64,000 nt of DNA. Source: a virus. The stretch covers positions 17,705 through 81,704 of IMG/VR virus record IMGVR_UViG_3300042564_005549; one strand, written 5' to 3'. The number at the start of each line of letters is the position of its first letter. Within the stretch, counting starts at the first letter, position 1. Both the position numbers and the translations under genes were made by a program. The notes beneath the pieces were generated by a model. It did not search any database, was not told the origin of the DNA, and worked only from the letters and a program-made list of their open reading frames with translations. Below are positions 13,417-37,573 of the stretch, piece by piece.

Positions 13417-13872
13417 ATGGCGACAACATCATACGGAATTGATTATCCATTTAGGGATAGTAGATACGGAGATTACTTAAAAACAACGGAATCTCCACAA
13501 AGAGAAGTGAGAGCGAATATCATACACCTACTCCTAACGAGAAAGGGTACAAGATATTATTTACCCGATTTTGGAACAAGACTATATGAGTATATTTTTG
13601 AACAAAATGATGTGGTTACATTCAACCATATAGAAGAGGAGATAAGAGAAGGAATTAGGAAATTTATCCCTAATGTGGAGATTAAATCCTTAAACATTAT
13701 GTCTGCAGAAAATGACCCTGACGAAACAAAAACATATAGTGAGGATGAGGACGAAAGATTATTTAGAGTTTCGGATTACTCAAGTAAACCATACACCGCA
13801 AAGGTGAAACTTGAATATACAGTAAATAACGGAGCATTTTCGGTATCAGACTTTATAATTATTAACATATAA
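13417..13872 (+). CDS. 25: Baseplate wedge protein, T4 gp25-like
   Basis: A 151-residue gp25/GpW-family protein. YGIDYPFRDS, then REVRANIIHLLLTRKGTRYY, LPDFGTRLYEYIFEQND and IEEEIREGIRKFIPNVEIK are the family pattern, including the conserved E-P/D-F-G-T-R-L region. In T4 and other contractile systems gp25 links the baseplate wedge to the first sheath ring. The family is usually about 130 residues; the extra length here is an acidic insert before the last strand. The next gene, gp6-like, starts 1 bp after its stop, the classic baseplate pairing. Confidence 0.92.
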   Translation: MATTSYGIDYPFRDSRYGDYLKTTESPQREVRANIIHLLLTRKGTRYYLPDFGTRLYEYIFEQNDVVTFNHIEEEIREGIRKFIPNVEIKSLNIMSAENDPDETKTYSEDEDERLFRVSDYSSKPYTAKVKLEYTVNNGAFSVSDFIIINI

Positions 13873-13873
13873 G

Positions 13874-15703
13874 ATGGCTAAAGAAATATCATACGCAACG
13901 AGGGATTTTGCCGGTTTAAGAGACGAATTAGTTTCACTAACCAAAAAATATTACCCTGAATTAATAAGTAACTTCAACGATGCATCGATTTACTCGGTGT
14001 TACTTGATTTAAACGCTGCGGTTGCAGATAACTTACACTTTCACATTGATAGGGTTTGGCAAGAAACAATGTTGGATTTTGCACAACAAAGACAATCATT
14101 ATTTCATATTGCAAAAACATATGGTATTAGATTACCCGGTTTAAGACCATCAGTTGCTTTGTGTGATTTCTCAATTAATGTACCTGTAAGAGGTGATAAA
14201 GACGATGAGAGATATGAAGGTATATTGAAAGCCGGTGCTCAAGTTTCAGGAGGAGGACAAATATTTGAAACATTGGAAGACATCGATTTCTCAAATCCTT
14301 TCAACAGTAAGGGTGAACCTAACAGATTAAAGATTCCTAATTTTGATAATAACAGTAAGTTAATATCATATACGATTACAAAAAGAGAGGCGGTAGTTAA
14401 TGGTACCACAAAAATATTCAGAAGAGTAATTAACGATGTTGACCAAAAACCGTTCTTAAAACTTTATCTACCTGAAAAGAATGTGTTAGGTGTTGTGGGA
14501 ATGATTCATAAATCAGGAACCAATTATGTTACCAACCCAACGTATGATGAATTTTCAACAGGTAATAAATGGTATGAGGTGAAATCATTAATGGAAGATA
14601 GAGTTTTTATCGAAGACCCGACAACCATTTCAGATACGGACAATTTTAAATCAGGTGATTATCTTAGAGTAGATAATAAATTTATCACAGAATACACACC
14701 TGAAGGATATTTCAATATCACTTTCGGTTCAGGAAATGTTGACCCAATGGATAATTTGGACAACTATATGAACGGAACAATGAAGGTTAATATTGCAACT
14801 TTCCTAAATAATAACTCATTAGGAAATATTCCGAGAGCAAATACCACGTTATTCATCAAATATCGTGTAGGTGGGGGTAAAGAATCGAATTTAGGAGTTA
14901 ATGTAATCACATCTGTAGATACAATTGATTTTGCTTTAAACGGTCCAAATTCAACAATAAACGACCAAGTTTATCAATCATTAAGAGTTACCAATATTAC
15001 ACCGGCAGTTGGTGGAGCAGATTCCCCAACAATCGAGGAAATTAGAAATATGGTTGCGTATAATTTCGCAGCACAAAATAGAGCGGTTACATTAAACGAC
15101 TACAAATCTTTGATTGAGACAATGCCATCAACATACGGAGCACCTGCGAAGGTTAGTGTGATGGAAGAAGATAACAAAGTAAGAATCAAATTATTATCAT
15201 ACGATAGTGATGGTAACTTAACTGACATTGTTTCTAACACATTAAAGAATAACGTATTAAATTATTTGGCTAAGTTTAGAATGTTGAATGACTTCTTAGA
15301 CATTATGAGTGGTGAGGTCATTGATTTAGGTTTAGAAATTGACTTGGTAGTTAACAAAAACGAAAGTCAAAGTGATGTACTTAAAGAAACAGTTAATACG
15401 GTTACAAGTTTCTTCGCAATTGACAAACGTAAAATGGGTGACCCATTATTCGTAGGTGATTTAATGAGAGAAGTTGGTAATGTTACAGGAGTAGTAAACG
15501 TTGTTGAAATCAGAGTCTTTAATAAAATTGGAGGGAAATATTCATCTGCTGAGATATCTCAAGCGTACAAAGATGACATAACTAAAGAGATTTTACAGTT
15601 TGATTCTACCATATATATGAAATCAAATCAAATCTGTCAAATTAGGTTCCCACAATCAGATATTAAAGTTAGGGTAAAAACTTTAACTTCGGCTACATAT
15701 TAA
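13874..15703 (+). CDS. 6: Baseplate wedge protein, T4 gp6 / baseplate J-like
   Basis: A 609-residue protein (T4 gp6 is 660). N-terminal ATRDFAGLRDELVSLTKKYYPE followed by NDASIYSVLLDLNAAVADNL is the usual start of gp6/baseplate-J proteins, and the second half has ADSPTIEEIRNMVAYNFAAQ then RAVTLNDYKSLIETMPSTYG, the signature of the J-like core. It forms the wedge dimers around the hub, with gp25 from the gene 1 bp upstream. The C-terminal part (about 450-609) carries the dimerisation-type alpha/beta repeat. Confidence 0.9.
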   Translation: MAKEISYATRDFAGLRDELVSLTKKYYPELISNFNDASIYSVLLDLNAAVADNLHFHIDRVWQETMLDFAQQRQSLFHIAKTYGIRLPGLRPSVALCDFSINVPVRGDKDDERYEGILKAGAQVSGGGQIFETLEDIDFSNPFNSKGEPNRLKIPNFDNNSKLISYTITKREAVVNGTTKIFRRVINDVDQKPFLKLYLPEKNVLGVVGMIHKSGTNYVTNPTYDEFSTGNKWYEVKSLMEDRVFIEDPTTISDTDNFKSGDYLRVDNKFITEYTPEGYFNITFGSGNVDPMDNLDNYMNGTMKVNIATFLNNNSLGNIPRANTTLFIKYRVGGGKESNLGVNVITSVDTIDFALNGPNSTINDQVYQSLRVTNITPAVGGADSPTIEEIRNMVAYNFAAQNRAVTLNDYKSLIETMPSTYGAPAKVSVMEEDNKVRIKLLSYDSDGNLTDIVSNTLKNNVLNYLAKFRMLNDFLDIMSGEVIDLGLEIDLVVNKNESQSDVLKETVNTVTSFFAIDKRKMGDPLFVGDLMREVGNVTGVVNVVEIRVFNKIGGKYSSAEISQAYKDDITKEILQFDSTIYMKSNQICQIRFPQSDIKVRVKTLTSATY

Positions 15704-23049: not shown

Positions 23050-23057
23050 TATTTATA
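23050..23057 (+). promoter_or_regulatory. TATTTATA box
   Basis: TATTTATA 15 nt before the ATG at 23073, in a 29-bp gap. Confidence 0.45.
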
Positions 23058-23072
23058 GATAAATAAAAAAAG

Positions 23073-23981
23073 ATGGCAGTAGGAAGTTACGGAACTATAA
23101 GACCGGCAGACGTTTCACCAGCAGATGTTGATATATATTATCACTTTGTTTCAGGTAGAACTGCAAGTACTGAAGTTCAATTTGAAAAACTCGATAATTC
23201 CCAAGATGTATTGACACCGGTTTACCATAATGACACAACAGGAGGTAATTCAGGTACGGAAATATTGGGCGGGATGTATAATTTAAAATTAGAATCTTCG
23301 AGATTTTCGGATTTAGGTATATATACACTTTATCTAAGACCCAAACAAATTAGAACAATCGTCACTGATTGTGGTGTATTATCTTCTTTGCCGTCAGTAA
23401 GAGGTTTGATTATTGATATTTCACAAATTGATAGTTCGGATGCTAACAAATTCACACCACAAGGATTAGTTGGTTACAGAATTGAGTATTTGGATGATTC
23501 AGGGGCTAAAATTCCTAATTTCTTTAGGGTAGTGACTTCTTCATTCTATTGTGAACCAGTTTTATCTAATTTAACGAATTCATCACAGAAAGCGATTAGA
23601 TACAGATATTCAGATATAACAACAAACTTAATGTTTTTGACATTAACACCTAGCTCTTCGCCGTCTAGTAGACCTAATACCATACCGTTTATTGGTCAAC
23701 CAAACCAAAATATCATTTTGACAAACACTCATTTCAATCCGGTTATGTTGGAAATTGAAATGGTTGAACACGATGCTACCACATTGGCACACGCACTTTA
23801 TGGTAATCAAAGTAAGTCAGTTAATGATGGTATTTACACAATTTATGACCAAAATAATCAAATCTATAAGCAGTTTAACTTATACGAAATTAAAGACGAT
23901 ATTAACGAAACACTATACGAGATTAGAGAAAAGAATGATAATATCGACGAAACATTAAACTTTGATGTTATAACTCAATAA
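23073..23981 (+). CDS. Baseplate/tail structural protein, unknown family
   Basis: A 302-residue protein starting behind its own TATTTATA box and ending in a TAATG overlap with the giant 1941-residue tail gene. It is beta-rich, with [20 protein letters not shown] near the start and [20 protein letters not shown] in the middle. The last 45 residues are a helical, highly charged tail ([20 protein letters not shown]) that could form a coiled coil. The coupling suggests assembly with the downstream fibre-bearing protein, possibly as its baseplate attachment partner; that is inference. Confidence 0.7.
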
Positions 23982-26900
23982 TGGCTAAAATAACAAGAAA
24001 GGTCCCATATCAGGCGGCTAGTGGTGGTGAAACGTTCAATGACAAACTCATCGGTTTACAAATAACCGATGGTAGTTCTCAATTGGCCAATACTCAATTT
24101 CTTATCGACAGAGTAATTCCTGAAAAAGACAGTAAGACTTTTCATACCCAACCATTTTCTGATTTCTTAACATTAGATACATTACAGGAAGAGAAGAATT
24201 CAATTTATGATGATAACTCAATGGGTAGTACTCTACCTGAGAGAAGTAAGAAAATTAAATTCCACGATTCTAAAAACGATGCAACAAAATCGTTATTCGG
24301 TTCGTTATCGACAAGATTAAATGGTGCAGTTGCGAATATCATTGAAAGTTTTCCTGCTGCGTTATTAGTCGATGTTGATTCACCTTCATCATCAACAAGT
24401 GTCAGTGCGGTATTAACAGGTGTAACTTACGGTTATGACCAATTATCGAATACCACAAGATTTAAATTTAAAAAGTCATTAATTTATAATCCGTTTGATA
24501 TAGTAATTCAAAAACCGGAAGGAATTGAAATATTACAATCAACTAACACATATAGAGATTTTTATTCATCATATACCAAATATGTAATAGATAACCTTAT
24601 CGGTTCAACATTTGAAATTGTTTCCTATGATGAACCTGACAATGACGGTTACGCATCGATTAAAGTTAATGGTCGTTGCTTTCCGGGTTACAATGAATAC
24701 ACCGACAATTATTTAATCAGACCAAATAATGCAGTTACTGAAGAATTCTTCAATAGTTTAGATGAATTAGAAACTGTTTTATTAGATAGAGAATCTACAC
24801 CAAAGTACACTGCGGCGTTTAAAGTTCCAACTGATTTATATGATGGAGCGGTTAGTGAATTGCAAAATGAATATGCAACTTGGCCAATTAGTAGAGATGG
24901 ATGGAACTTACAGATTGTTGGTCTTGATTATGAATCATACGTATCGACATTAAGTAACATTGGTAATATTGTGGATGATTATAAATCTAATTTAATTATT
25001 AGATTCTTAACGTCACCACAACTTTACGAATTCGATACCGAAGAGAAAAAGGCGGAAGCCATTTTCCAATTATACGGACAAAGTTTTGATAAGATAAAGA
25101 AATTTATCGACAACATTGCGTTTATGAGGAATGTTAGTTATGACAAAGCTAACAACGTACCTGACGTATTATTAAAAAACTTAGCCGAAACTTTAGGATT
25201 ATCAACAGTTAACTTGTATGATGAAAAATCATTACAAGAAATATTATATACAAGACATAGCCCACAATACGAAGGTGTTGGAATGGGTGTTAACTTATTA
25301 GAAGGTGAATATGAATTCTACAGAAGATTAATCGTCAATCTTGCACATTTATACAAATCAAAAGGTACAAGATTAGCCATTGAATTCTTTTTGAAATTCA
25401 TAGGTGCACCAGAGCCGATGATTAGATTGGATGAATATATCTATCGTGTTGATAGTTTATTACCAAAATCAACGTATGAAAATGACATCAGAGAAGTTAT
25501 CAGTGGAGTTAAAGAATTCAATCACGTTGAATTTGTTCCATTTGCAACAACAATTGACGGAGTCGATTACAATGCCTTTACTTACAGATTAGTAACCACA
25601 TCAGGCTCAACAGTATTATCAAGAACTGAATACCCTGTAACAACAGATGGTTTACCAAGAGCATTGAAAAGCTCTGATGGTTCATTGTACTTTGCAATGG
25701 GTGCGGGTTGGTATAGAAAAACATTAGACCATAGGTCTGGTGACATTTTAGATAGAGAAAATTCTATATTAACAGGTAACACAAAAGTACTTAAGACAAA
25801 ATCAAAACCATTCACATATGGTGAAGATTACTTCAACAATTATAGACAATTACCAGGTTTAGATTACGGTTACGATTTAAACATCGAAATCGATAATAAA
25901 AAAACTGAGGTGTTGGATGATGATGGTAACTTCACATATAAATTAAACAGAAAAAATATTAATGTTTTCTTAGATGGTTCACGAGCAATTGATTATGACA
26001 TCTATAGAAAGAGTAGAAACTTAACATTAGACTTTGGTACATTACCTCCACAGGAAAAACCATCATTTGCCGAGTTTTTAAAAGAGGCGGTTAGTCAAGT
26101 TATTAGAAACTCAAATACTATAAAGTATAAAAAAGAGTATCGTTTATTAAAACAAGTGTATGAAGCTTATGTTAATAGTGTTTCATTCACCCCATACAAC
26201 TATATTAAAATAAATGAATTCATTCAAAGAATGAGTCCATATTGGGTTAATGTGATTGACCAATTTGTTCCTGCAACCACACAATGGTTAGGAGGTAACT
26301 TAATTGAGAACGGTACATTTGGAAGGTCTAAGTTTCAATACAAACAACCTTGTACACCAAAAGAATTTGTTGAGGTATTATATCCTGATTTTGAAACTGT
26401 AATTGAAGAAGATTTAGAAACAATTATAGGTGGAGGAACAACGACATATGAGAACGCAACTAACGAAGATAGTTTAAGAGGTTTATTCTCATTAAGTGGA
26501 TTAACCTATACAATTTACTTAAACATCAATGGAAACATCTATTCAGGAACAAGTTCTAATTTACGTTCAGAACTTTTTACAGGATACACCCCAACAGTTA
26601 ATTGTACATCATTAACAAATACTACGAGTTCAATTCCATTAATTTGTGAATATAAAAATTGGATTAATTTAAACTTACCGTTAATTAAAAATGAATGGAA
26701 AGAAACATTAACCGATTTAGTACAGACAATCAATACACAAATAACCCAAGACAATTATGGTTGTATTGATGATTATGCACCATACACTGCAAAGACTCAA
26801 ACATCTAACTGTTCACAAGTTTATAAAAAGACACTTTCATTAGAGTACTTTTTAGATATTGACGGAGTTGAAAAAGTAAGATTCACGTTAGATACTACAG

Positions 26901-29806
26901 ATTGTAGAAATGGTGAAAGTATTGATTTTTATTTTGAACCGAATTATGGTTTAGATAAAGATGAATGTAATTTAAGAGTTGAGTTATCAGGACCAGCAAT
27001 ACCGTACCAAGGTTCAACAACTAATTGTCAATTAGTTGAAGATGTTTACATAACGGTTACGGGTACAACGACCGGTGTTGAAAATAATGGAATTTGGGAT
27101 TTAAACATTTATATAACCAGTGGTACAACTTGTAACACCGGAGTATGTACTGATTGTGATTTCATAGAAATCAATGACCCAAAACCAATTAAGAGAGCGA
27201 TATATGCGGATGATTTAGAATTAGTTACTTGTACGTATATTATCCCTAATGTTAAAGAAACAGATGTTTACGATATCATTATTTCCGATGCTGCAAACTG
27301 TGAACAAAAATTCAGAATTGAGGGATTACAACAAAAGGTAGTCCAAATTTCTGATGAAGTAAGTGGATACACTATAAATCCTAAAGTACAATATAAAACT
27401 TCTTTTGATTATGGTATAAAGAAAGGAACTGAAATTTACAAATATGTTTCAGGTTCGGTTCCAACAACTTGGCAAGGTCTACAAAGTAGTCTTGTGTCTG
27501 GAAATGTTATTGAAGCATTTATTGAAGATATAGAAATAGGGGATAGAATTTTAAGTATAAGTCAAAAAGATTGTAATCTACAACCAACTGAAATGTTTAA
27601 GTTTGTTGAGGACAATGGATATCAATTTACTTTTGATTACTCGTTAGTTACAGTTGGAAGAAAAGAATGTTTAAGTTCTATTAAGAAAGATGTTATTAAC
27701 GGTGAGTTTGAAGTGTTACCAACAAGTAAAATATTGGTTTACACTAATATTAATGAATACTTAGAAACGGTTCCATATCATTTTACATACAAATATCCTG
27801 AAGATTTATTTGTAAGACCCGAACAACCTGAAATGCCTTGTTGTGAATATCCTGAAGGATATTTCCAGAGTGGTGACTTTATGATAAATCAATTTGGTTT
27901 TCCTATTGAGGTAACAAGTGTTGATTTAAACTATTGTAATAGAGGAATTTACTACACGTTAGTAACATCTGGAACTTCAATTAATTCAGATACTATTTTA
28001 TTTAATGGACCTTCAAGTGGAGTTAATCGAATTATCATATCAACTAAAAATGATTCGGCCTATATTAGTCCGTTTACAGGAAATAAGTTTGAGTGTTTAG
28101 ATATTGACACCCAACAATATTATTTAGGTTATGAATGTGATACGGTTCCAAGTGTTGCAAGTCTAACAAGATTAACAGGATGTACTGATGGTGACTGTAC
28201 TCAAGTACAGGCAGGTCCAAATGCTCAAAGGTCATTTATTGCCGAGGATACAACTCCAACACCAACCCCTACGCCGAGTCCAACACCAACACCTACCCCA
28301 ACACCGACAGGAACTCCAACCCCTACACCAACTAGTACACCGACACCAACAAGTACACCTACGCCAACTGCGACTGGTACACCTACACCTACACCAACTG
28401 AAACACCGGTACCACCAACGGCAACACCTACACCTACACCGACCCCAACACCGACAGGTACACCAACGGCAACACCAACAGTAACCCCAACACCGGTTTG
28501 TGAATTCAACATATCTGTGGATGTTGTTATACCAACTGCAACACCAACACCAACGCCAACATCGACACCAACACCTACACCTACACCGGTTTGTGAATTC
28601 AATATTGGTGTAGATATCATTGCGTCTACCCCAACACCAACGCCAACATCGACACCAACACCTACACCTACACCGGTTTGTGAATTCAATATTGGTGTAG
28701 ATATCATCGCATCAACTCCTACACCTACCCCGACACCAACACCTACGTCAACACCAACTGCAACTCCTACACCTACACCGGTTTGTGAATTCAATATTGG
28801 AGTGGATATAATTGCATCAACTCCAACACCAACACCTACACCGAGCCCAACGCCTACAGGTACCCCAACTAATACACCTACAGCGACTCCAACCCCAACA
28901 CCAATTTGTGAGTTTGGTATTACTGTAGATATTATTGCGTCAACACCAACTCCGACTCCGACTCCAACACCTACAAATACTCCGAGTCCGACACCTACAA
29001 ACACACCAACTAATACTCCAACTGCGACACCTACACCGACTCCAATTTGTGAGTTTAATATTGATGTTGTGGTTGTACCTTCTACACCAACACCAACACC
29101 TACGTCAACACCAACATCAACTCCTACAAGTACCCCAACAAGTACTCCGACTAACACACCTACACCTACACCAACGGCAACTAACACACCTACACCTACA
29201 CCGACAGCAACTCCAATTTGTGAGTTTAATATTGATGTAGTGGTAATCGCGTCAACTGCAACACCAACACCTACCCCAACACCTACCCCAACCGCAACAC
29301 CGACTAACACACCAAGTCCAACACCTACTAACACTCCAACCGCAACACCGACTAACACACCAAGTCCAACACCTACAAGTACACCAATACCTTGTGAGGC
29401 AACAATTACAAATACAAGTAACCCAACAAGTTGTGGTAACAATGCTGATGGTTCATTAACATTGAATGGTTCGGGTGGTGTCGGTCCATATTCGTACTAC
29501 TTATATGAAGATACTTCATTCCCTTATGAGACATCAGGTGGTACTGTATATCCAGGATTCCCAGTTCATAATCAAACAGGAGGTTACAATGTAACAGATT
29601 TAGTACCGGGTGGTTATTACTTAAGAATTGTAGATGCGAATGAATGTGAAGACTTTAGTGAAGTTGTGGTATTACCATATGACGACACTACTTGTGTAAC
29701 ACCACCATCATCATATTTCTGTAAGGAAGATAATTTTAGCCCTTGTCTTGAACAACTAAACCCTTGCGGACCTAGTCAAATAGTATGTACAGAATTTGAA
29801 GTATAA
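23981..29806 (+). CDS. 1941-residue tail protein with TPTP/CEFN repeats and an SprB-type repeat
   Basis: The largest gene in the window. Residues 1-850 look like a baseplate-attached tail protein; [20 protein letters not shown] followed by [20 protein letters not shown] resembles tail protein I-type domains. About 850-1420 is beta-rich with many Cys. Residues about 1425-1805 are Thr-Pro linkers alternating with seven CEFNIxVDIIAS-like units. The C-terminal 135 residues hold an SprB-type repeat ([20 protein letters not shown], then [16 protein letters not shown]), a module known from the Flavobacterium gliding adhesin SprB. Likely a long, flexible surface fibre or adhesin tied to the baseplate. 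No G occurs in long stretches of the coding strand in the linkers. Confidence 0.8.
28250..29391 (+). repeat. Thr-Pro-coding microsatellite-like repeats with seven CEFN units
   Basis: In-frame ACM-CCN repeats coding TPTP linkers, interrupted by seven units that begin TTTGTGA (near 28497, 28587, 28674, 28781, 28903, 29045 and 29216). One 77-bp tract (28544-28620) is repeated exactly at 28631-28707, an 87-bp (29-codon) period. The coding strand is almost only A, C and T. Confidence 0.9.
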
Positions 29807-29837: not shown

Positions 29838-29845
29838 TATTTATA
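29838..29845 (+). promoter_or_regulatory. TATTTATA box
   Basis: TATTTATATAAAACA 22 nt before the Hint-gene ATG at 29868, giving the Hint gene its own promoter candidate. Confidence 0.5.
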
Positions 29846-29867: not shown

Positions 29868-30371
29868 ATGGAAACAAATCAAAAAGGATGTTTAGTCCAA
29901 GGAACATTAATCTCAATGGCTGACGGAACTTCAAAAGTTATTGAAGACGTTGTTGTTGGAGATTTAGTTAAATCAGTAGTTTTAAATCAAGAGGAAGGTA
30001 TTTTTGAAGAAACTGTAGGTACCGTTGTAGAATTACAACAAGAAGAAACAGAATTAGTATACTCATTAAATGAAGGTTTACTAATTGCATCTGAAGACCA
30101 CAAACATATTGTTAGACAAAAAACACCTGAAGGTGATGCATATACTGAAAGATGGATTGTATGTAGTACAACTTTTGTTGTTGAAGACGATAAAATGATG
30201 GGTGCTGATGGTATTGAAATCACAATAACATCAAAAGAAGAAGTAACAGGAACTAAAACAGTTCATAACTTAGTAATAGAAAACCATAACACATTTATTG
30301 CAAATGGTGTTATTACTTATAACGAAATATTACCTGAAGTAACGGAAGAAGAAACTCCGGCTGGAGAGTAA
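29868..30371 (+). CDS. Stand-alone Hint-domain (intein/hedgehog-type) protein
   Basis: A 167-residue protein that is almost entirely a Hint domain. CLVQGTLISMADGTSKVIED begins at Cys8 (intein block A). LLIASEDHKHIV is the block B-type His motif. VHNLVIENHNTFIANGVITY then Asn152 form the C-terminal blocks. The usual penultimate His is Tyr here, and the residue after Asn is Glu, not Cys/Ser/Thr, so protein splicing is unlikely; N-terminal cleavage or thioester chemistry is possible. Only 7 residues precede the Cys, and a 15-residue acidic tail follows, so there are no real exteins. It lies between TPTP-linker fibre genes. Function is inference: processing or crosslinking in trans, or a structural use of the fold. 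Confidence 0.85.
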   Translation: METNQKGCLVQGTLISMADGTSKVIEDVVVGDLVKSVVLNQEEGIFEETVGTVVELQQEETELVYSLNEGLLIASEDHKHIVRQKTPEGDAYTERWIVCSTTFVVEDDKMMGADGIEITITSKEEVTGTKTVHNLVIENHNTFIANGVITYNEILPEVTEEETPAGE

Positions 30372-30389: not shown

Positions 30390-30968
30390 ATGTTAGCAAC
30401 ATTTTATTTAACAGGACCATTTTCAGCATCGACATTATCGACTGAATTTACCATTACAGGAGAACCAGGAGGTATAGTTCACCCTGGTGTGACAAAAGCA
30501 CAATTATTAACAGGACACACAATTGTTTTTGTCGATTCGGTAACCGGAGGAACAGTTACGGCAACCAATGAAACTTGTGAAGGAACACAAAAAAGTTGGG
30601 CAGTAATTCAATCTACTCCAACGCCAACTCCTACTCCAACAATTACATCAACACCATTACCTCCACTATATGGATTCTTCCGTAGTAATCCATCAGTAGA
30701 AGCTCTTGGACATTGTGAGCAAAATCAAATAACAAGTGCATTATTCTACAGTACATCAACAACAATTTCGGGTATGTTAGGTACAACGGTATATGACGGT
30801 AATCAAGACCCTTGGGTTGGTGGAGATTTCTATTATGCGGTTTCTTCAGACGATACATTTAACACTAACGACCAACCATATTCGGTTATTGAAGTTGATA
30901 ATTATGGTATGGTTACTGATGTTCAATATATCACGGATTGCGGCGGTGGCGGCGGTGCAATAGTATAA
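30390..30968 (+). CDS. Short TPTP fibre protein with the shared C-terminal domain
   Basis: A 192-residue protein 18 bp after the Hint gene. It has an N-terminal beta domain (1-70), a short Thr-Pro linker (TPTPTPTITSTP), and a C-terminal domain of about 95 residues starting YGFFRSNPSVEALGHC and ending in DNYGMVTDVQYITDCGGGGG plus AIV. The same C-terminal pattern occurs at 31069-32472 and 34196-35380. Probably a small tail-tip or fibre protein. A strong terminator follows. Confidence 0.75.
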   Translation: MLATFYLTGPFSASTLSTEFTITGEPGGIVHPGVTKAQLLTGHTIVFVDSVTGGTVTATNETCEGTQKSWAVIQSTPTPTPTPTITSTPLPPLYGFFRSNPSVEALGHCEQNQITSALFYSTSTTISGMLGTTVYDGNQDPWVGGDFYYAVSSDDTFNTNDQPYSVIEVDNYGMVTDVQYITDCGGGGGAIV

Positions 30969-30996: not shown

Positions 30997-31026
30997 AAAC
31001 CCCTTCACAAAAAGGGGTTTTTTTAT
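30997..31026 (+). terminator. Intrinsic terminator
   Basis: AAACCCCTT (30997-31005), loop CACAAA, AAGGGGTTT (31012-31020) and a run of Ts. It splits the fibre cassette after the Hint and short fibre genes. Confidence 0.92.
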
Positions 31027-31068: not shown

Positions 31069-32472
31069 ATGGGATTAGTAATTAGACTGCACGATATTGT
31101 ATCACCGAACCAATTTAAGGTTTACTACAAGCAAGCAACATCACCATATCCAATGAATAGTGGGTATAGTTTGTATGGGACTTTTAGTGCCGGTACAACA
31201 ACTGTAAACGTTAGCGGAATTACAATTAATTTTAATTCAAATTATTGGTTTAAAATAGAAGACCAATCAACCGGTCGATATATTATTGAAAATATTGAGA
31301 CAAACGACCCGATTGCATATATGGACTGTTGTCCACAACCGGTATCGTTAGGCGCAGTTTGTTATCATAGTTGTTACCCACCAACAATTAATAGTATTAG
31401 TTGTGTTGGACTTGCGGACCCAACTCCAACTCCAACACCAACTCCTACAAGCACACCAACTCCAACACCAACTGCAACATTAGTTGCCCCGACAGCTACA
31501 CCAACTCCTACACCTACATCAACATTACCTGGACCAACAGCAACACCAACGCCTACACCAACAAGTACACCTACACCAACACCAACAATTACACCAACAC
31601 CATTACCTGGGTGTAGTTCTATTGTAACGGGTGAGTATAGTGGTTCAGATTTCTATAACTACCCTGATAATCAATTAAATTTTACAGGAGTCCCTAATGG
31701 TGCAACAATTAACTTTACTTGTACAGCAAATGATAGACCAAATAATATTTCAATTAGAACAGCGTTAACTGTACTTGAAAGTACAGGATGGTTTGGTAAT
31801 TCTTCAGGATATGATTCGGGAGATTATTGGTATCCAACCGAAGGAACTGGTCCTATAACATTATCAATCACGTATGATAATACTAAAACATATTATATAG
31901 ACGCATTAACAGCGCCGGCTTTAGCTGCACCTAACGAAGTGAACGATTATTGGGAAGTAAGTATACAGTGTTTAGGTGTACCTACACCAACACCAACAAT
32001 TACACCAACACCAACAAATACTGCAACACCTACACCAACACCTACACCAACGGACCTACCTATTTATACATTCTATAGAGCTGCTGAAGTAATTGATGAT
32101 AATATCTCAACAACTTATTGTAACAATTTCCCTGGCGGTCAAGGTTATAATATTAGTTCACCATTCTATACAACAGATTCAATGTTAATTCCGGGTTCAA
32201 CTGTAATCTATAGTGACCCTGCTTTAGTAAACGAGATTGTAGGTTCTTGGTCATTAAGTAATGTAACTAGAATGGCTTACATTACTCAGACTGAATATCA
32301 AAACGCCTCTGTTACTCCGACAACAACTAACCCTGAAGGTGATACGTTATATGATGGTGGCATATATAAATGGATGAGAGTAAATTCAGATGGAGTTGTA
32401 ATGTCTACAGGTACCGACAGTTGTACTGATGGTGGAGGTGGAGAAGGACCTGAAGGACCGAATGTAGAATAA
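31069..32472 (+). CDS. TPTP-linker fibre protein
   Basis: A 467-residue modular protein: N-terminal beta domain (about 1-115; RLHDIVSPNQFKVYYKQATS), Thr-Pro linker (about 117-182), a central domain that resembles bacterial pre-peptidase C-type sandwiches (about 183-305; PNGATINFTCTANDRPNNIS), a second Thr-Pro linker, and the shared C-terminal domain (about 330-467) with YTFYRAAEVIDDN, MLIPGSTVIYSDPAL and a Gly-rich end. The linkers make a bead-on-string protein. Likely a receptor-binding or surface-adhesion protein. No signal peptide. Confidence 0.78.
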   Translation: MGLVIRLHDIVSPNQFKVYYKQATSPYPMNSGYSLYGTFSAGTTTVNVSGITINFNSNYWFKIEDQSTGRYIIENIETNDPIAYMDCCPQPVSLGAVCYHSCYPPTINSISCVGLADPTPTPTPTPTSTPTPTPTATLVAPTATPTPTPTSTLPGPTATPTPTPTSTPTPTPTITPTPLPGCSSIVTGEYSGSDFYNYPDNQLNFTGVPNGATINFTCTANDRPNNISIRTALTVLESTGWFGNSSGYDSGDYWYPTEGTGPITLSITYDNTKTYYIDALTAPALAAPNEVNDYWEVSIQCLGVPTPTPTITPTPTNTATPTPTPTPTDLPIYTFYRAAEVIDDNISTTYCNNFPGGQGYNISSPFYTTDSMLIPGSTVIYSDPALVNEIVGSWSLSNVTRMAYITQTEYQNASVTPTTTNPEGDTLYDGGIYKWMRVNSDGVVMSTGTDSCTDGGGGEGPEGPNVE

Positions 32473-32502: not shown

Positions 32503-34170
32503 ATGGCGGCAGCAAGCATAACGGTTAATTACACAGCAGGTTGTACAGGATGTACTCAAGAATATAGATATGTTGTCAGTACTGGCGACATTAACACTGC
32601 AACTGTTATACCATATTCAGGTTCATCACCTTTAGTGATTACCGGTTTAACAACTGGTAATTCATATACCGTACAAATGAGAAATGTATGTGAATTAATC
32701 TCAAGTGATTGGACATCTACACAAACCGTTACTTGTAACGCAATCATCACGCCAACCGCAACACCAACACCAACTCCTACAAGTACACCTACACCAACCG
32801 CAACAGCTACACCAACTCCTACACCAACATTACCTGGACCAACCGCAACACCAACACCAACTCCTACACCAACATTGAATATAATTGACCCTGAAGACCC
32901 AACTGTTTATTATTATTATGCATTGGGAGATTGTAATGATATGAGATATTCATATACTGCAATTACTATTACAGGATTTAGTGCCCCTATACAAATACCA
33001 GGTTGTGCAACATTAACTGAAATTGGTACGTTATCATTACAAAATCCCGCAACAACATCAATTGTATTATCTGACCCATTAGACCCTTGCGGTTTTGGTG
33101 AAAGTTATTCAGGAGTCGCAATTGGTAGAAGTACATCATCATTAACTGAAGGTACGGTATATCTTGTTGGTGACCAATGTTTATCTATCATTGCGGTAGA
33201 AACTCAATATGTTGAAAGTTGGAGTGTTAACTTAGATGGTATATCACCAATTGCTGGTGATAATCCTTGCGGAGCTTGTGACCCACCATTTACAGGTTTC
33301 CAAATATCAGGATTTAGTGGTACAACTTGTGACACAGGTGAAAATATAATTGCTTATTCCTTAATTACTCCTGGAGTGTTAGGTAATGTATATGGAATAC
33401 AAATGTATAGTGGTGGTACTGCGGTAGGTTCTGCAAAATGTGCAACTTTAACTACAAATTTAGGTGTACAATTTGTTATAACTGACCCTGAAACTGAAGG
33501 TATTACAGGATATGGTATAAGTGATTTGGGTCCATTTGAATTAGGTCAACCGATGTTCCAAGGATATGAAGATTGTGCAACTTGTGAGGGTGTTGAACAA
33601 AAATATATGATTGTAGGTGAAAGATGTGATACCACGGGTAGTGTGACAATTTGGTCAGATACACCACCAACAGTCGTAAGTGGAGATACTATTTCGGTTA
33701 ATATTTTTGGTACAATAGCGTGTTTCCTTGTAACACAAGCAGACCAATTTACATCCGTTGTTTATAATGATATTGGAAATACAATAGTAGAAACAGGTTG
33801 TGATTGTAATGGAAATAGTGGAGGTGCAAATGTAAACGTTGCAAGTATTGTTGCAGCACCGATGGATAGTAGTAGTACATATAGTGAATGTCAAGGTTCA
33901 ATGGGGCAATATTACAATGAATATTACGAATATGATATAGAATTAATATTCAAAGATTCAAGTAATAATTCAGTTATACCTAATCAACCGGTTGAGTATC
34001 GTATTAATGGAGGTTCTTGGGTACCTACAACAGCAAATTCCACTACAATAGTGATATCGACTACATTAACATATTATGATAATACCGCTTGTGGTGGTGG
34101 ACCATATGCAGATACTTTAGATGTTAAAGTTGGCACAATAACAGTTCTTAATTACACTGCAGGAAGTTAA
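32503..34170 (+). CDS. TPTP-linker fibre protein with fibronectin III-like N-terminus and Cys-capped modules
   Basis: A 555-residue protein. The first 80 residues look like a fibronectin type III domain (QEYRYVVSTGDINTATVIPY; LTTGNSYTVQMRNVC), closely like the start of the gene at 34196. A Thr-Pro linker follows (about 84-125). Then come tandem modules of about 95 residues ending in Cys-rich joints (NPCGACDPP, EDCATCEGV, ETGCDCNGN). The C-terminal 110 residues are unassigned and Ser/Tyr-rich. It lacks the Gly-rich C-terminal domain of its neighbours. A host-surface binding role is inferred. Confidence 0.78.
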   Translation: MAAASITVNYTAGCTGCTQEYRYVVSTGDINTATVIPYSGSSPLVITGLTTGNSYTVQMRNVCELISSDWTSTQTVTCNAIITPTATPTPTPTSTPTPTATATPTPTPTLPGPTATPTPTPTPTLNIIDPEDPTVYYYYALGDCNDMRYSYTAITITGFSAPIQIPGCATLTEIGTLSLQNPATTSIVLSDPLDPCGFGESYSGVAIGRSTSSLTEGTVYLVGDQCLSIIAVETQYVESWSVNLDGISPIAGDNPCGACDPPFTGFQISGFSGTTCDTGENIIAYSLITPGVLGNVYGIQMYSGGTAVGSAKCATLTTNLGVQFVITDPETEGITGYGISDLGPFELGQPMFQGYEDCATCEGVEQKYMIVGERCDTTGSVTIWSDTPPTVVSGDTISVNIFGTIACFLVTQADQFTSVVYNDIGNTIVETGCDCNGNSGGANVNVASIVAAPMDSSSTYSECQGSMGQYYNEYYEYDIELIFKDSSNNSVIPNQPVEYRINGGSWVPTTANSTTIVISTTLTYYDNTACGGGPYADTLDVKVGTITVLNYTAGS

Positions 34171-34183
34171 AAATAAAAAAACG

Positions 34184-34191
34184 TATTTATA
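34184..34191 (+). promoter_or_regulatory. TATTTATA box
   Basis: TATTTATA 4 nt before the ATG at 34196. Confidence 0.45.
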
Positions 34192-34195
34192 ATAA

Positions 34196-35380
34196 ATGGC
34201 ACAATTAATATTAACTTGGTCGGCACCTTCGGATTGTAGTGGATGTACTTTTGAATATAGGTACAAACTTAGTAGTGCATCAACATATGTAACAGGTGCA
34301 ACAAGTAATACTATTGTAACAATTAATAATTTAATTGACGCTCAAACATACAATTACAGTGTTAGGACCGTATGTCCTGATGCTGGAGGTAATTTAAGAA
34401 GTAGATGGTTAAATGGAAGTTCAGTTACTTGTAACACGAATCCACCATTACAACCAACACCCACACCTACAATTACCCCTACACCTACATCAACACCAAC
34501 TAGTACTCCAACACCGACACCAACGGCGACCGTATTAACACCAACCGCAACACCTACCCCAACTCCTACACCTACAACAACCGTAGGGTCTTGTTTAAGT
34601 GGTGATTTGACATCTTCAGGTAATTGTAGTAGTTCAGATTTGGCATCGTTTACATTATCTAGTGGTTATCAAGCAACGATTACACCAAGTGGATTTTTCT
34701 ATAGTGGTACAGGAACTAGATATGCTTATGCATATTTAAGGACAAGTACAGGGACTAACATCCAACAATTTACATTAACGCAAGTTAACAGCACCACACC
34801 AACATTCTCACCAAGTACGTATACAATTACGACACCAGGTTCATATCAACTTTACGTACAACAAGTTGATTGTAATCAGGGAGGCACAGGAGGTTCGGGT
34901 ACAATGAGCCTTACTGTTGGTAATTGTCAAGTTTATACTGCACCGACTCCTACTCCTACCCCAACTCCAACAGCACAGCCAATTTACACTTTCTATGCCG
35001 CGAGTCAAATACTTTGGGATAATGTAGGAACAACATATTGTAGTGAACCGGGATATATTATGTCAGGTCCATTATACTCTCTTGACGCAACACTCACACC
35101 GGGCTCAACAGTATTATACACTGACTATACTTTAGAAACGGAATATGTTGGTGGATGGACTAATAGTTCAAACTATCGATTTGCGTATATTACCTCAACG
35201 GACCATCAATTATATACAAATTATCCGAGCTATCCAAACACCATTGACCCTGACGCAGATGGAAATATGGGAGGGATATTCAAATTTGCCGGCGTAGATG
35301 AAAATGGTGTTGTACAAACAACAGGAATATATAGTTGTAGTGGTGGAGGTTCAGGTGGAGGCGATGGTGCCATTGAATAA
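34196..35380 (+). CDS. TPTP-linker fibre protein, paralogue of neighbours
   Basis: A 394-residue protein. The N-terminal fibronectin III-like domain (CSGCTFEYRYKLSSASTYVT; QTYNYSVRTVCPDAGG) matches the start of the 32503 gene. A Thr-Pro linker leads to a pre-peptidase C-like domain (SSDLASFTLSSGYQATITPS; TPGSYQLYVQQVDC), then a short Thr-Pro linker and the shared C-terminal domain (YTFYAASQILWDN, LTPGSTVLYTDYTL, Gly-rich end). The module shuffling suggests duplication and recombination between neighbours. Probable tail surface adhesin. Confidence 0.78.
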   Translation: MAQLILTWSAPSDCSGCTFEYRYKLSSASTYVTGATSNTIVTINNLIDAQTYNYSVRTVCPDAGGNLRSRWLNGSSVTCNTNPPLQPTPTPTITPTPTSTPTSTPTPTPTATVLTPTATPTPTPTPTTTVGSCLSGDLTSSGNCSSSDLASFTLSSGYQATITPSGFFYSGTGTRYAYAYLRTSTGTNIQQFTLTQVNSTTPTFSPSTYTITTPGSYQLYVQQVDCNQGGTGGSGTMSLTVGNCQVYTAPTPTPTPTPTAQPIYTFYAASQILWDNVGTTYCSEPGYIMSGPLYSLDATLTPGSTVLYTDYTLETEYVGGWTNSSNYRFAYITSTDHQLYTNYPSYPNTIDPDADGNMGGIFKFAGVDENGVVQTTGIYSCSGGGSGGGDGAIE

Positions 35381-35416: not shown

Positions 35417-37573
35417 ATGAGTTTTTTACACGAAAATGAATCAGAACATATAGCTGCGAGAATCACCAACGAAGGTAGACAAAAAATTGCTGAAGGTAAT
35501 TTCAATATTGTCTATTTCCAAGTCGGAGATTCCGAATATGACTATAATTTCGAAGAGTATGATGGTACTTCAGGTACCACAAACCCATCTCAAAAGGTAT
35601 TCACACCTTTGGATAAAGATTCTATTGTAAAATACCCATACAAGTTATCAGAATCAACAGTTACAGGTACAACATTTGGTAACCCAATTCAAGTAGCTCA
35701 AATAGAAACTATTAGAAATGAAATGGGCGCTGCGGGATTTGTTTCGGCTTATTTAGAATTTGATGATACAACAGACCCTTGTACAGGAACAACCGTTGAA
35801 TGTTCAAATGAAAAGATACCGGTTTCGGCTTTATCAGGAACCACAACATTATATCTAACAGGAAACACATTTTCTGATTGTCAATATATAACAATTGCAT
35901 TTACTGAATTAATCGGTGCAGATGCGGTGATTTCAGGAACATCAACAAGTTTAATTTATAGAGTAACTAATTTTGTTTCAGGTTCATCTGTTAATACATT
36001 AACATTGGATAGAGCGACTCCAAATATGTCAAATATATGTTCAGGAGGTTTTGCAACTGTTATGTGTAACAAATGTAACCCATTTTTTCCTGGTCCATAT
36101 GAAACAGATTTAACTTGTTTACCAAACACACAAAACCCTGAAGACCAACAAGACCCTTGGACATTGAACATTGTGTGGAGTGAAAGACCTGCCGGTGTTA
36201 AAAACCAAGGTTCAGAAATTCAAGAATATGTTAGTGGTTACACAAGTAACGTATTCGTTTCAACAAAAGAATTTTTAGGATACGGTTCGTCATCGGGACA
36301 AACTGTAAACACAGGAACAACAATTACCAATTCATTTGGTGATTCGGTTGTTGTATTTCCTGAAGAACAACATAGTATAGCGATTATACATTATTCGGAA
36401 TTGAATACTGAAAGAGAACCTGAAAAATTCTTTAAGTATGAAGATTATATTAGTACTAATAATAGTCTTACTGATGCGTTATTATATGACACAGACGACC
36501 AACCAGTTACTGATTTAGATTACTTTGAGGTTTATATTCCATTTATTTATTATAATAGAAATACCGGTACCACAATAGGTGCAACATTCACAATGGATAC
36601 TACAGATTATTTTGTGAATTCAACCGCAATGGATACTAAATTAAATAAAATAAAGTACAGATACCTAATTGACGAAAGAGGATATAGAGTAGGTAGAGTT
36701 TATTATAATAACAAAATAATTGTATTTGATGACCAAGAGATTGTTGCAGTTTTAGATTACAAATCTAATAGAAAATATACATTACCAATTCCAAGAGTTT
36801 CTCAAGTTCCTGTTGATACTAAATGTAGCACCAATGGTAACCCATTAACACCACTTATGAGTGGAACTACAGGTCAAACTGTATTTGTTACATATCTTTT
36901 AGAATTTAGTGGGTCAACATCTTTACATTGTAACCACTATTCAAAAATAACAGGTACATCGTTAAATGCTGATATATCATTAAGATTCTCTGATGATGAT
37001 TGGGGACATATGAAATCTACAAAATGTGGATTTAAAGATGGTTACATTGCTGACAAATTATATGCATTAGTTCAATTGGTAGACACTGGTGACCAACCAC
37101 AAACTAATTTATGGACAAAGATTAATATTACATCGGACATCCCTAACCATACTACAGGATTAATTGACCCTGATAATTTAAAAGGTGCACGTTTTGTTAT
37201 CACAAATGATGATTATGATAATGGTACGATATATGACATTGAAGACCATTTAGGTGAATTACCCGACCAACCAGCACCATATGCAAACGGTAGTTTTTAT
37301 CAAACAACTCCTCAATTTGGTGACGAACAACCATTCCCTGGTAGTGTAAAATTGATTAGAGCTTCCGACTTAACTGTTATGAGATTCTTAGTTAATTTAC
37401 CAAATGGTGAATTTACAACAACACAAAACCCAAGTTATACCACAGGTAAAACTAAAAGAATTACTGAAGTTGCTTTACTTAACAGTAATAAAGAAGTTTT
37501 AGTAATCGGTAAAACACCAAAACCAATTCACAGAGTAGGAACTCAAGTATTTGCAGTTAAAATTGACCTCTAA
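35417..37573 (+). CDS. Large tail/baseplate structural protein
   Basis: A 718-residue protein without Thr-Pro linkers. The N-terminus, ESEHIAARITNEGRQKIAEG followed by NIVYFQVGDSEYDY, resembles the attachment domain at the start of many phage fibre and collar proteins (I-T-x-x-G-x-x-x-I and a later x-x-G-D). The C-terminus (TEVALLNSNKEVLVIGKTPK) looks like the EIGL-type strand that ends such domains. The middle is beta-rich, with CSNEKIPVSALSGTTTLYLT and a cluster MCNKCNPFF. Likely a baseplate-periphery or fibre-anchoring protein closing the tail cassette. Confidence 0.72.
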   Translation: MSFLHENESEHIAARITNEGRQKIAEGNFNIVYFQVGDSEYDYNFEEYDGTSGTTNPSQKVFTPLDKDSIVKYPYKLSESTVTGTTFGNPIQVAQIETIRNEMGAAGFVSAYLEFDDTTDPCTGTTVECSNEKIPVSALSGTTTLYLTGNTFSDCQYITIAFTELIGADAVISGTSTSLIYRVTNFVSGSSVNTLTLDRATPNMSNICSGGFATVMCNKCNPFFPGPYETDLTCLPNTQNPEDQQDPWTLNIVWSERPAGVKNQGSEIQEYVSGYTSNVFVSTKEFLGYGSSSGQTVNTGTTITNSFGDSVVVFPEEQHSIAIIHYSELNTEREPEKFFKYEDYISTNNSLTDALLYDTDDQPVTDLDYFEVYIPFIYYNRNTGTTIGATFTMDTTDYFVNSTAMDTKLNKIKYRYLIDERGYRVGRVYYNNKIIVFDDQEIVAVLDYKSNRKYTLPIPRVSQVPVDTKCSTNGNPLTPLMSGTTGQTVFVTYLLEFSGSTSLHCNHYSKITGTSLNADISLRFSDDDWGHMKSTKCGFKDGYIADKLYALVQLVDTGDQPQTNLWTKINITSDIPNHTTGLIDPDNLKGARFVITNDDYDNGTIYDIEDHLGELPDQPAPYANGSFYQTTPQFGDEQPFPGSVKLIRASDLTVMRFLVNLPNGEFTTTQNPSYTTGKTKRITEVALLNSNKEVLVIGKTPKPIHRVGTQVFAVKIDL

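Follow-up and report, generated by a model that had tools for sequence, protein, structure and literature searches.

The question raised by this locus is what a protein that is almost nothing but a Hint domain does among the tail-fibre genes of a large virus, the host of which is Bacteroidota-type bacteria, and which of the reactions of such domains it may have kept. Hint domains are known in several guises, i.e. inteins, Hedgehog processing domains, BILs and pre-toxin domains; a literature search returned no paper on Hint domains of phage fibres. The DNA analysed (64,000 nucleotides, hereafter the window) comes from an 81.7-kb virus record, of which it covers positions 17705-81704. Within it, the ORF at 29868-30371 (167 residues, with an ATG start; plus strand, as are the window genes, domain blocks and upstream box located below) is a real gene coding for almost nothing except a Hint domain, as indicated by phmmer, AlphaFold2, Foldseek and synteny in two relatives, L002 and L003. 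The layout of the product is METNQKG-C8...Y151-N152-EILPEVTEEETPAGE, with only seven residues before Cys8 and 15 after Asn152, so there are, as proposed in the initial annotation, no exteins. The reading frame is offset by one base from that of the preceding gene, which encodes a protein of 1941 residues, and two TAA stops lie between them; the ORF is thus a separate gene rather than an in-frame part of its neighbour. A read-through or frameshift fusion of the two was rejected in view of the offset frame, the TAATAA and a conserved intergenic region with its own promoter-like box.

The region is one of tail genes, since baseplate wedge proteins of 151 and 609 residues (13417-15703) are identified by matches to baseplate wedge families in PHROGs. 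Between these and the Hint gene is a row of large proteins, the last of which is the 1941-residue, TPTP-rich protein (23981-29806). Next downstream is fibre gene A (192 residues, TPTP-rich; 30390-30968), followed by three more TPTP-rich fibre genes (31069-32472, 32503-34170 and 34196-35380) and, to the right of the cassette, by a conserved protein of 718 residues (35417-37573), which served as the anchor for finding relatives. These ORF coordinates agree with the location first assigned to the gene, between the large TPTP protein and the TPTP fibre genes. Several of the cassette fibre genes have Gly-rich tails at their ends. A terminator-like hairpin with a T-run (aaccccttcacaaaaaggggttttttt) is present after fibre gene A, at about 30998-31024. 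The box TATTTATA, which had been described as the gene's own, occupies 29838-29845, 30 nt upstream of the ATG; L002 and L003 match it and its flanks almost exactly, though the window has 12 copies in all. Eight of these (at 23050, 29838, 34184, 35405, 37596, 47048, 49706 and 59550) lie 12-30 nt ahead of ORF starts, and TATTTATA is therefore probably a recurrent phage promoter element.

The assignment as a Hint domain is, on the combined evidence of phmmer and of a predicted structure, beyond chance. In a phmmer search against PDB chains, residues 6-151 match the Tetrahymena BIL2 domain (E 2e-6). The AlphaFold2 model, for which the input was an alignment of nine virus-derived Hints, has a mean pLDDT of 86.5 and is predicted to adopt the all-beta, horseshoe Hint fold. 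In Foldseek its top ranks are BIL domains (6y75, E 2.9e-10; 2lwy, E 2.0e-8), followed by the gp41-1, DnaB and Prp8 inteins and by Hedgehog (1at0, E 4.6e-6); there are 55 PDB matches at E<=0.001, and among the matches listed all are to inteins, BIL or Hedgehog. The fold, the block A nucleophile and the T/S-x-x-H of block B are those of the Hint superfamily, but Pfam scores are below the curated cut-offs (Hom_end_hint, 19.4 bits against 32.1; Hint_2, 17.5 against 28.4; Intein_splicing, 13.7 against 35.8) and the matches to NCBIfam Hint/intein models are likewise weak and sub-cut-off. Such a cut-off is a database threshold and not a biological feature, and the fold test weighs more. A single-sequence scan of cellular genomes with the protein gave zero relatives, tblastn against INPHARED gave nothing, and PHROGs held no useful family. 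Several candidates were discarded, i.e. a DNA pattern for HNTFIANG, which retrieved known relatives only, plus an unrelated phage protein in two copies; weak Hint matches in G055, G056 and G006, which turned out to be another protein family; and a match in G012, which lies inside a protein homologous to the large, repeat-rich one upstream.

The residues expected of a Hint active site were compared across 56 aligned virus-derived Hints, a set that is not dereplicated. Block A of the window protein (residues 8-32, CLVQGTLISMADGTSKVIEDVVVGD; 29889-29963) begins with the nucleophile Cys8 (codon 29889-29891), and the equivalent Cys1 is present in 54 of the 56. Block B is Ser75-Glu-Asp-His78 (30090-30101); the first of these positions is T or S in 53/56, and the last is His in 54/56. 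In blocks F and G (residues 132-152, VHNLVIENHNTFIANGVITYN; 30261-30323) Asn152 is kept, as is its counterpart in each of the 51 Hints that have a letter at that column, whereas the penultimate His, found in 46 of the 51 with a letter there, is replaced by Tyr151, a substitution confined to the window, L002 and L003. The block-F column, His in 27/56, is Asn141 in the window protein, and the +1 residue, Lys in 33 of the surveyed Hints, is Glu153. His aside, block G (ANGVITYN) aligns with those of inteins and type A BILs. Beyond Asn152 is an acidic tail of 15 residues (EILPEVTEEETPAGE; 30324-30368), which is identical in the window, L002 and L003. The catalytic features first read from the DNA, including the penultimate Tyr and the +1 Glu, are thus borne out by the alignment.

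The block-F His and the penultimate His are normally used for C-terminal cleavage, i.e. Asn cyclisation, whereas the acyl shift in Hint proteins targets the peptide bond preceding their own Cys, a chemistry that occurs in cis. Splicing by the window protein is probably impossible, because it has neither a +1 nucleophile nor exteins. Cyclisation of Asn152 is likely to be weak or absent, since both of the usual histidines are missing. With the cyclisation histidines lost and the acyl-shift set kept, N-terminal chemistry is the most that might be expected; an N-S acyl shift at Gly7-Cys8 could clip METNQKG, so exposing an N-terminal cysteine.

Comparison with known systems places the protein near, but not within, the defined types. 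Type A BILs (Tetrahymena BIL2, 6y75/6tmm; C. thermocellum, 2lwy) are its best structural and sequence matches, and have in common with it the fold, Cys1, T/S-x-x-H, the terminal Asn and the lack of a +1 nucleophile; BILs, being without this nucleophile, mostly cleave (PMC4031507; PMC7664689). Type A is defined, however, by a C-terminal His-Asn (PMC4031507), whereas the window protein has Tyr-Asn, albeit with Glu153 in place of a +1 nucleophile, and it stands alone with no flanking host protein. Type B BILs have a block G unlike that of inteins, and that of the window protein is intein-like. As neither definition applies, the filing stops at 'BIL-like Hint'. Class 1 inteins (gp41-1, DnaB, Prp8) share the fold and the block A and B residues, but the window protein is not inserted between exteins, has no endonuclease and no +1 Cys, Ser or Thr, and lacks the penultimate His, which is usual, though not universal, in inteins. 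The Hog/Hint domain of Hedgehog (1at0) similarly has a Hint fold with an N-terminal acyl-shift centre; by contrast, the window protein, with only 15 residues after Asn152, has no sterol-recognition region, and there is no signalling domain ahead of it.

In L002 (a 160-kb contig) and L003 (73 kb) the Hint gene is at the same place, with 87% amino acid identity. To its right the fibre genes are heavily rearranged in these close relatives; the Hint gene and the end of the 1941-residue protein gene are not. The dN/dS of the Hint gene is 0.22 (NG86, window versus L002); conserved neighbours in the tail region are at 0.02-0.07, and fibre A, compared with L003, is at 0.375. In residues 121-167, a stretch to which Asn152 and the acidic tail belong, there are 10 synonymous codon changes and a single nonsynonymous one; within the tail itself the changes between the window and L002 are four synonymous and none nonsynonymous. 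From these comparisons, which involve three sequences, among them a nearly identical pair, the gene appears to be under purifying selection in the window and both relatives, and the full conservation of Asn152 and the tail argues that the C-terminal end still matters. A gene of 213-214 residues (MGTFNR...GGVLFDFN), nucleotidyltransferase-like by eye, occurs in the fibre cassettes of L002 (14509-15153), L003 (14554-15198), L136 (8539-9180) and L192 (8174-8818); the window lacks it at 34170-34196.

More widely, a search with an alignment of the 718-residue protein retrieved 80 contigs, and overall there were 82 anchored loci. At 95% identity these fall into 47 clusters, of which 18 have a member reaching the large upstream protein. 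Of the 82 loci, those of the window lineage and of L192 alone contain a Hint; 50 whole records, when searched, yielded no further Hint of the window kind, and relatives of 310, 336 and 245 kb have none at the cassette. The expectation that the same gene would stand beside TPTP fibres in relatives thus holds for both close relatives, but not for most of those bearing the cassette. Since most relatives with the same cassette are without it, the Hint is no general fibre-processing factor. In L192 the Hint is within a protein of 311 residues homologous to fibre A (tblastn E 5.9e-13), in the order fibre part, TPTP, Cys-rich module, CFIEG...THN-IKPSG, second Cys-rich module. It has 27% identity to the window Hint, with which it shares the cassette, the neighbouring gene and a related virus, and differs in being fused between two Cys-rich modules, in its His-Asn and in its +1 Ile. 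A Hint and the fibre-A position are thus associated twice, beside fibre A in the window and inside its homologue in the distant L192, and the location of the gene, the same in two of two close relatives, is not random. In a phylogenetic tree the window Hint is on a long branch, with no supported grouping with L192 or with any fused Hint. The idea that the Hint is coupled with the Cys-rich C terminus of the upstream protein was dropped, because L136 has the YFCRDNVSSPCIEQ... end and no Hint.

Scans with Hint alignments gathered many virus loci, true inteins among them (phage-genome inteins, e.g. L007-L010, L099 and L100). A large share of the virus Hints are, however, C-terminal on virion-like proteins, often right behind Gly-rich linkers. 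Such fused Hints, mostly with the linker and with a short tail after HN, are found in L005 (THN-VEQTDKF), L011 (THN-SEQVKE), L078 (VHN-SENTETPKEPIG), L080 (THN-VEEDLKQKE), L093, L113, L115 and L117 (VHN-KIASSLASE). In Flavobacterium, i.e. in cellular genomes, a DUF5977 module, a Gly-rich linker and a Hint ending THN-YKQPLANDY (L244, 4605-5486; L239, 4326-5474; and similar loci) adjoin a tail fibre that has Peptidase_S74 and phage fibre repeats, and these are thus prophage-like fibre loci. The fused fibre Hints (L005, L011, L078, L080, L093, L113, L115, L244 and L239) resemble the window protein, which is itself located beside fibre genes, in their fibre context, in commonly having Gly before Cys1 and in the short post-Asn tail; they differ in having 75 to 2600 residues of other protein ahead, mostly with Gly-rich linkers, and a His-Asn end, whereas the window protein starts seven residues ahead of Cys1. 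Judged from its sequences, the class is similar overall to type A BILs. BFVD has Hint folds in proteins of uncultured phages that bear the names fibronectin type III or collagen repeat, together with a few Hints of stand-alone size, e.g. of 143 and 153 residues, uncharacterised or unnamed, so this size is unusual rather than unique. The survey shows that fibre-like proteins of phages and prophages repeatedly carry a Hint as their C-terminal module. That of L080 (5776-6471) is nearly stand-alone, in a protein of 231 residues in which the block-B His is Gln (TWEQ), and a neighbour of 1922 residues in that phage likewise has an intein-like stretch.

The best explanation, to which we give an even chance, is that the window Hint is a BIL-like module of the fibre-linked, C-terminal Hint kind, detached as its own gene, that does not splice and carries out an N-terminal acyl shift at most, the centre for which (Cys8 and Ser75-x-x-His78) it has kept. 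Its role would then most likely be that of a small accessory of the fibre cassette, descended from a fused fibre Hint, and not of a processing enzyme for its neighbours; the fused-to-detached direction is one that we infer, the tree giving no supported grouping with fused Hints. Against this reading, it is not evident what the removal of seven residues would serve, three sequences of which two are nearly identical would show the same conservation if the fold were dead, and the full conservation of Asn152 and the tail speaks for a C-terminal end that still matters. A catalytically dead Hint fold, acting as a structural or assembly protein that binds a fibre or the 1941-residue protein with no bond broken, is the main rival, and a serious if tentative possibility. 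The loss of both the penultimate and block-F His, the want of a meaningful leaving peptide at either end, the long branch and a dN/dS laxer than that of conserved neighbours are all consistent with it, whereas the retention of Cys8, Ser75, His78 and Asn152 in all three members is not what it leads one to expect. If the preferred reading, with N-terminal chemistry only, is correct, the stand-alone Hint provides a small, clean test object for a virion role, if any, of such domains.

The initial annotation had proposed either that splicing was lost, which is likely given the lack of exteins and of a +1 nucleophile, or that neighbouring fibre proteins are processed or attached, for which no trans substrate is indicated. 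A trans-acting factor of the latter type, acting e.g. on Gly-rich C-terminal tails, would fit the Gly-rich ends of several cassette fibre genes, which are like the linker before fused Hints elsewhere, and the conserved neighbourhood in close relatives; it is nevertheless improbable, because such tails also occur in a relative without a Hint (L136) and because Hint chemistry acts on the protein's own preceding peptide bond, and most relatives that have this fibre cassette lack the gene. It is very improbable, too, that the protein is a free acyl-transfer partner, which, once clipped and with Cys8 exposed, joins or exchanges with Gly-rich fibre ends, although, if true, this would mean covalently decorated or cross-linked phage fibres. 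That the gene is what remains of a mobile intein, or of a splicing one whose host gene was lost, has hardly any probability: the superfamily is the same and phage genomes do carry inteins, but the idea was rejected for want of a homing endonuclease, exteins or a +1 nucleophile, and the best matches are BIL domains, while three viruses keep the gene as a separate unit, which has its own promoter-like box.

A further family of proteins, of about 500-637 residues and with a degenerate Hint, is encoded by several jumbo relatives and by the L002 genome (L132, 640-2130; L207, L208, L210, L214 and, in the L002 genome, L216); none was found in the window record, which is a fragment. The N-terminal part of the family is weakly ATP-grasp-like (Foldseek 3k1t, E 7.6e-3, from a low-confidence model with a mean pLDDT of 66.9), and the Hint (Foldseek E about 2e-7) is without Cys1, mostly keeps 'HN' and is followed by a Cys-rich tail. 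Such a protein would mirror that of the window, with only the C-terminal cut left, freeing a Cys-rich peptide. The genes adjoin an ORF of roughly 90 residues with CxxC and, in places, ORFs that by eye are 2OG-oxygenase- or sulfotransferase-like. A protein of 912 residues in L004 (8177-10915), the N-terminal part of which is distantly like this family, has four tandem Hints, the first degenerate, and a VHNK end.
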